A stretch of DNA of 55,881 bases from Rhodospirillaceae bacterium (GTDB taxonomy: Bacteria; Pseudomonadota; Alphaproteobacteria; GCA-2731375). Within the stretch, counting starts at the first letter, position 1; the number at the start of each line of letters is the position of its first letter. Shown here in pieces: positions 25,751 to 26,404 of this stretch. The stretch is taken from positions 1 through 55,881 of the forward strand of contig JABIRL010000283.1 in assembly GCA_018667855.1 (NCBI GenBank), written 5' to 3'. The notes below the pieces were generated by a model that saw nothing but the letters and a program-made list of their open reading frames with translations, ran no database searches and was not told the origin of the DNA. Position numbers and translations under genes: made by a program.

Positions 25751-25799
25751 TTGACATAGATCAAAGCGCGCGCTCGTGTGGTTTCGCACAATAGTATCA
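25751..25799 (+). promoter_or_regulatory. FNR/FixK-type box and class II promoter
   Basis: TTGAC-ATAG-ATCAA at 25751-25764 matches the FNR/FixK/Anr consensus TTGAT-N4-ATCAA in 9 of 10 defined bases. If its centre is at -41.5, the classic activating position, transcription starts at 25799 and the -10 hexamer falls exactly on CACAAT (25787-25792). The 36-codon gene begins 22 nt later with its own ribosome site. Confidence 0.75.
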
Positions 25800-25820
25800 A
25801 TCTAATAGAAAGGTACTGTT

Positions 25821-25931
25821 ATGCCAGCTAGTGAGATGTGGTATTTGATTTTGGCTATTGCTGTATTTGTCGGATTTATGGGAACACTTGCGTATGCCTC
25901 ACAGTCCGAGGCGAGTTCACGCAAGAACTAA
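25821..25931 (+). CDS. 36-residue membrane microprotein
   Basis: A tiny protein that I do not recognise: it begins MPASEMWYLILAIAVFVGFM, continues GTLAYASQSEASSRKN, and ends at TAA 25931. Residues 6-26 form one membrane helix with a short periplasmic or cytoplasmic polar tail. A GAAAGG site lies 8 nt upstream. The FNR-type box at 25751-25764 predicts induction at low oxygen. Single-helix subunits of this size accompany terminal oxidases (CydX, CcoM and CcoQ-type proteins), so an accessory role with a respiratory enzyme is a reasonable guess, but sequence alone does not prove it and no oxidase gene is adjacent. It is convergent with the DUF4864 gene, 11 nt apart. Confidence 0.7.
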   Translation: MPASEMWYLILAIAVFVGFMGTLAYASQSEASSRKN

Positions 25932-25942
25932 GTAATTGACAA

Positions 25943-26404
25943 TTACGCGCCTGCTTCACCTCTTTGCAATAAACGACAGCCAATGATGCGCCAGGATCCC
26001 TTGGCGTCCTTGGTCATTGTGTAAAGAGCAAGGGCTTTGTGCCCGTCCGTTCCCGTAAATCGGACAAATTGAAGCCATTCACCTTTGACAGTCGCCATCT
26101 CGCCGAATTCCGCCCGGTGATGACGATAGACTTGCGGATAGGCCGCGCGCACCATGGCCATGAAATTTGCGGCTGTCCCAAATAATCTTTGGATCATTGG
26201 CGAGGCGATGGAAAAGGCCGTGCCCGCGTCATCGCGGGCAAAGGCGCCCAACTGCCTTTCAATTACGGTCTGGATTTCCGCCTGATCCGGGGACGACAGC
26301 TCTTTCGCGACCAACACCCCACGAGATCCTGGTATCAAGAGCAGGCAAAGCAAGACTATGAAAAGTATGGCCGTGAAGGGTAGACGCCGGAGACAACGGG
26401 TCAT
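25943..26404 (-). CDS. DUF4864 domain-containing exported protein
   Basis: A 153-residue protein of the DUF4864 family. The N-terminal stretch RLPFTAILFIVLLCLLLIP is a signal peptide or anchor. The family core is visible: QAEIQTVIERQLGAFARDDA, ASPMIQRLFGTAANFMAMV, and the C-terminal GSWRIIGCRLLQRGEAGA. The fold is NTF2-like, suggested by its helical N-terminus and strand-rich C-terminus. A GAGG site precedes ATG 26404. Function is unknown; the family is mainly alphaproteobacterial. Confidence 0.8.
   Translation of the reverse strand: MTRCLRRLPFTAILFIVLLCLLLIPGSRGVLVAKELSSPDQAEIQTVIERQLGAFARDDAGTAFSIASPMIQRLFGTAANFMAMVRAAYPQVYRHHRAEFGEMATVKGEWLQFVRFTGTDGHKALALYTMTKDAKGSWRIIGCRLLQRGEAGA

Follow-up and report, generated by a model that had tools for sequence, protein, structure and literature searches.

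CcoM, a 36-aa subunit of the cbb3 oxidase of Pseudomonas stutzeri (PMC10433244), shares with the microprotein described here its length, a single helix and a link to low oxygen. CydX, the small subunit of cytochrome bd (Pfam YbgT_YccB), resembles it in length and in having one helix. FixQ/CcoQ and FixS/CcoS are likewise small one-helix proteins of the same regulon; they are longer than the microprotein and are encoded in cco operons. In Caulobacter, FixT inhibits the FixL kinase by feedback (PMC7078487, PMC3751524). Further away, MtrI is an oxygen-responsive microprotein on the Mtr complex of Methanosarcina (PMC12774963). Like the microprotein it is small and was unannotated, and it responds to oxygen and binds an energy-conserving complex, but it is archaeal, sits on a different complex and responds to oxygen exposure; it serves as a working analogy only and no relationship is claimed. 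The loci studied here agree with the described alphaproteobacterial FNR/FixK regulon (PMC4999443) in box, spacing, regulators and neighbouring genes, and the terms searched found no such microprotein in the main text of that paper, to which the search was confined. Small hypothetical genes behind comparable boxes appear in tables of FixK2/NnrR targets, e.g., bsl4623 with its box at -71 (PMC6710368); their identity with the family is not established. No published description of the family was found in a full-text search of the open-licence literature, and some members may carry a hypothetical-protein annotation in genome records.

In the window (the whole 55,881-nt stretch of DNA analysed), the microprotein gene comprises 36 codons at 25821..25931 on the plus strand, and its translation is MPASEMWYLILAIAVFVGFMGTLAYASQSEASSRKN. 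It is recognised from its ORF, its conservation, its pN/pS and an AlphaFold2 model. The first-pass annotation had described the peptide as a single membrane helix, which the model bears out (helix 3-35, mean pLDDT 88.6) in agreement with hydropathy. According to the positive-inside rule, the acidic N-terminal end is inferred to lie outside and the basic C-terminal end in the cytoplasm. Upstream, an FNR/FixK-type box, TTGACATAGATCAA, occupies 25751..25764 (+). With the box centred at -41.5, transcription is predicted to start at 25799 (+), an inference that also rests on the box-to-ATG distance in relatives, and the predicted -10 hexamer is CACAAT at 25787..25792 (+). The resulting leader to the ATG is 22 nt long and carries a Shine-Dalgarno-like AGAAAGG at 25807..25813 (+). 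This class II geometry had been proposed before; its coordinates agree, and the register recurs in relatives. The box is the sole perfect TTGAY-N4-ATCAA in the window, where 0.13 matches were expected and 9 of 100 shuffles gave at least one. Taken alone it has no significance and proves little; its significance is supplied by comparison with relatives.

A gene encoding a DUF4864 protein (25943..26404, minus strand; Pfam PF16156, E=2.1e-37), considered for context only, is convergent with the microprotein gene, which is therefore a single-gene unit. DUF4864 adjoins its 3' side, and two congeners (L003 and L011) have similar downstream sequence. FolD, a glyoxalase-like protein, a methyltransferase and a thioesterase are encoded on the 5' side, and an FAD oxidoreductase comes after DUF4864. 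No terminal oxidase or other respiratory complex is encoded among these window neighbours, whose identities confirm the earlier statement that no oxidase adjoins the gene, and FolD, the methyltransferase, the thioesterase and the FAD oxidoreductase offer no functional clue.

Orthologues of 30-37 aa were found in all 10 other genomes of the genus, each with a perfect FNR/FixK box starting 68-77 nt 5' of the ATG. Changes fell mostly at third codon positions and the pooled pN/pS of six independent pairs was 0.26, which together indicate purifying selection on the encoded protein. The named genus records are MAGs; several isolate names, from which the sampling sites were taken, indicate Saanich Inlet, the Black Sea or Caspian at 150 m, or the Arabian Sea, sites that would suit low-oxygen life.

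Profiles built stepwise from the window-genus sequences (A1-A4) recovered divergent relatives of 29-44 aa with one helix in many alphaproteobacterial families. Members begin with M, often have an acidic residue at position 5, and share the core AF-x2-F-x3-LA-[WY], a helix with [YF]L and a short basic tail. Intermediates, e.g., MSVAELVYLCGVIVAFLTFSVTLAWCQHQTSDF... (L202), connect the window type, YL...FMGTLAY, to a Bradyrhizobium-like type, MPTDxxxV...AFxxFAxxLAWADxxT; the labels Bradyrhizobium-like and Caulobacter-like are guesses, with gene content among their grounds. No members were detected outside Alphaproteobacteria among 299 genomes of the phylum, the sole out-of-class matches lying inside 643-codon frames, and a plasmid collection queried with four members gave no credible match. 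Searches of Pfam, NCBIfam and PDB chains returned no convincing match, only weak scattered ones that varied from member to member, and none of 33 members matched the Pfam models of FixQ/CcoQ or FixS/CcoS. The microprotein family is thus widespread, box-linked and unmatched by any family model searched. It meets the criteria of the working kind "low-oxygen one-helix microproteins" (30-45 aa, one helix, purifying selection, oxygen-regulated promoter), the oxygen response being predicted only.

As profiles of short one-helix proteins may drift to any helix, the box, which played no part in the profile search, could be used as an independent check of membership. Counting boxes within 150 nt 5' of an ATG, we found a perfect box at 33 of 46 profile-found members vs 18 of 1,606 ATGs elsewhere in these loci, and a box with at most one mismatch at 39 of 46 vs 43 of 1,606. 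Without the window genus, the proportions were 22/35 and 28/35, respectively. In the Bradyrhizobium-like family f171, 15 of 27 scored loci had a perfect box, a count that includes the misplaced locus L225, which should be excluded; family f64 had fewer boxes (6/19), and some of its matches are doubtful. The box is thus kept in all 10 congeners and in most distant members. Its distance to the ATG in relatives clusters at 64-78 nt. When the box centre was set to -41.5, A was enriched at -11 (20 of the 39 boxed members) and T at -7 (24 of 39); these are the two key letters of the -10 element. Together, this spacing and these letters support the predicted class II promoter model class-wide. The criterion for the FNR/FixK regulon, TTGAY-N4-RTCAA conserved at an activating distance, is met.

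Two further features of the boxes were observed. Outside the usual palindrome, the second base 3' of the box (25766 in the window; nominal -33) is a G in 35 of the 39 boxed members and might mark an extended contact with the regulator or polymerase. In five loci (L215, L219, L220, L221, and L232), the box position or its vicinity holds a half site, or two, of the TTGCG/CGCAA type, as in NnrR or mixed boxes, and this pattern of letters suggests that the regulator may have been switched in some lineages.

The first-pass annotation would have been refuted by a lack of conservation in relatives; ORF and box are instead conserved jointly. That the ORF arose by chance below a chance box was conceivable from the window only, since the box alone is not rare enough for 56 kb. 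The protein, box and spacing are conserved across genus and class and pN/pS is 0.26, so that this explanation, to which we give practically no credence, is refuted. That the window ORF is a real gene is well supported, as is its predicted control by FNR/FixK; low-oxygen induction, expression, topology and partner are inferred.

In the source genome, the fully degenerate TTGAY-N4-RTCAA is over-represented, with 35 sites vs 4 for a control pattern. Such boxes precede, among others, the genes for NnrS and a universal stress protein (Usp); these functions are typical of responses to low oxygen or NO and fit an FNR-type regulon. One boxed gene (L139, 1564-3012) fuses Usp domains to a protochlorophyllide reductase-like domain (PCP_red). 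Within 350 nt upstream of the source-genome ccoN (G000:C293, L156), no FNR-type box with fewer than three mismatches was found, in which some relatives' ccoN differ.

In many lineages, the window genus included, the microprotein gene stands alone without an adjoining respiratory gene. Nevertheless, fnrN/fixK, fixL/fixJ, ccoN or cydDC lay within 1.5 kb of 24 of 87 members vs 1 of 56 control loci drawn from the same kinds of genomes. The microprotein gene stands between fnrN and ccoN with cco genes downstream (L146), before fnrN and ccoN (L147), between fixJ fixL and cydC/D-cydAB (L148), or ahead of fixLJ, fnr, cydDC and cydAB (L149), and ccoN is also near it in L170. It occurs with fixL fixJ in L211, L216, and L222 and with fnrN in L094, L100, L210, L238, and L239, and it adjoins fixLJ/fnrN in L125, L159, L164, L172, L211, L216, and L222. 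The commonest close neighbours are fnrN/fixK and fixL/fixJ, and the linkage of these islands to regulators is at least as strong as that to oxidases. A Bradyrhizobium-like genome (G605) has three copies (L146, L150, and L157), two of which each lie upstream of a different ccoN gene; one of its copies adjoins a truncated fnrN and resembles a duplicated fnrN-microprotein segment without oxidase. In G091, the microprotein gene lies approximately 9 kb from ctaD.

Across 80 genomes, co-occurrence of the microprotein with ccoN or cydA gave no signal: ccoN was present in 28 of 40 carriers vs 27 of 40 genomes without a detected member, and cydA in 20 vs 24, so there is no co-variation pointing to an oxidase. 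Divergent members may be hidden among the 40 "negatives". Twelve of the 40 carriers lacked ccoN, 20 lacked cydA and nine lacked both. Within the genus, cydA was found in none of 11 genomes, which excludes a dedicated bd subunit there, and ccoN, present in the source genome, was missing in five of the 11, at 84-96% completeness; the missing ccoN genes are hard to attribute to MAG incompleteness, though some genes may be hidden. In five carriers (G001, G005, G138, G091, and G419; 93-98% complete), a single heme-copper oxidase of the aa3 type is the only terminal oxidase detected, bd being absent; CtaD in the four compared is 75-94% identical to that of G005. Given such carriers without cbb3 and/or bd, the microprotein is not a dedicated bd subunit, and a dedicated cbb3 subunit is unlikely as its general role.

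Accordingly, identity with CydX, for which we see very little room, was rejected for the genus. Length, the hydrophobic helix, an internal MWY reminiscent of CydX and the proximity of cydDC/cydAB in L148 and L149 speak for it, but besides the missing cydA, 33 members failed to match Pfam YbgT_YccB (E<=1) and the motif YxxWxxGx15E/D (PMC4325964) is absent by inspection. A small cbb3 subunit analogous to CcoM, encoded away from ccoNOQP, would have a similar size and one helix; in its favour are the ccoN genes close to the microprotein gene in L146, L147, and L170, the genome in which a copy precedes each of two ccoN genes, and the ccoN of the source genome. We nevertheless consider it unlikely: unlike a cbb3-bound subunit, the microprotein occurs in genomes without ccoN, five of the 11 genus genomes among them, and members were only detected in Alphaproteobacteria; the source ccoN lacks a comparable box and hence shows no sign of shared control; and a PDB search with the family profile gave no chain at E<=10, although the CcoM chain itself was not compared singly.

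The prevalence of fnrN/fixK and fixL/fixJ among the neighbours could instead mean that the microprotein regulates a membrane oxygen sensor (such as FixL) by feedback, rather than a respiratory enzyme; FixT already offers a precedent for feedback inhibition of the FixL kinase. FixT, however, is a receiver-domain protein unrelated to the microprotein, the presence of FixL is not shown for every carrier, and the neighbours could simply mirror clustering of the whole regulon, so we hold this idea to be rather improbable. Similarly doubtful is an action on some other low-oxygen membrane protein, involved in transport, NO or copper handling or membrane stress. Most window-like members stand alone, and many known one-helix microproteins act on transporters; against this stands the linkage to respiratory and oxygen-sensing islands.

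The explanation we favour, with roughly even confidence, is that low oxygen induces the one-helix microprotein, which then serves a respiratory complex as an accessory subunit or modulator, and that its gene is monocistronic and FNR/FixK-activated; the partner is inferred. When oxygen falls, an FNR/FixK-type regulator would activate the gene at its class II promoter, giving a 36-residue single-pass membrane protein. The conserved face formed by AF-x2-F-x3-LA-[WY] may then dock laterally on a larger respiratory-chain complex, a step that is itself inferred, and would tune that complex to low oxygen by way of its stability, assembly or activity, as CydX and CcoM do. As some carriers have neither cbb3 nor bd, the partner must occur in such genomes, which makes an aa3-type cytochrome c oxidase or an associated complex such as bc1 the likeliest candidate; otherwise several oxidases might be served. 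A partnership with bc1, with a sensor kinase such as FixL, or with a non-respiratory membrane protein remains possible. Comparison among relatives supports, at the level of sequence, the gene, its coding constraint, the box, the promoter register, the family and the association with low-oxygen islands. The analogy to oxidase subunits remains open: in other lineages the family does cluster with genes for oxidases and oxygen sensors, yet carriers without cbb3 and/or bd exist.

Rhizobia, Caulobacter and bacteria of oxygen-minimum zones all belong to the Alphaproteobacteria, whose Fix/Fnr network is a textbook case of an oxygen response; a conserved member of that network appears to have been overlooked owing to its length of only 30-44 residues. 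More tentatively, a class-wide, unnamed microprotein in the core FNR/FixK response might retune a constitutive complex (aa3 oxidase or bc1) under oxygen scarcity, which would make it a bacterial counterpart of the hypoxia-induced subunits of mitochondrial cytochrome oxidase. If modulation of aa3 or bc1 proves true, these bacteria would retune an existing complex at low oxygen, beyond swapping oxidases, and such retuning would sit in the class from which mitochondria came.
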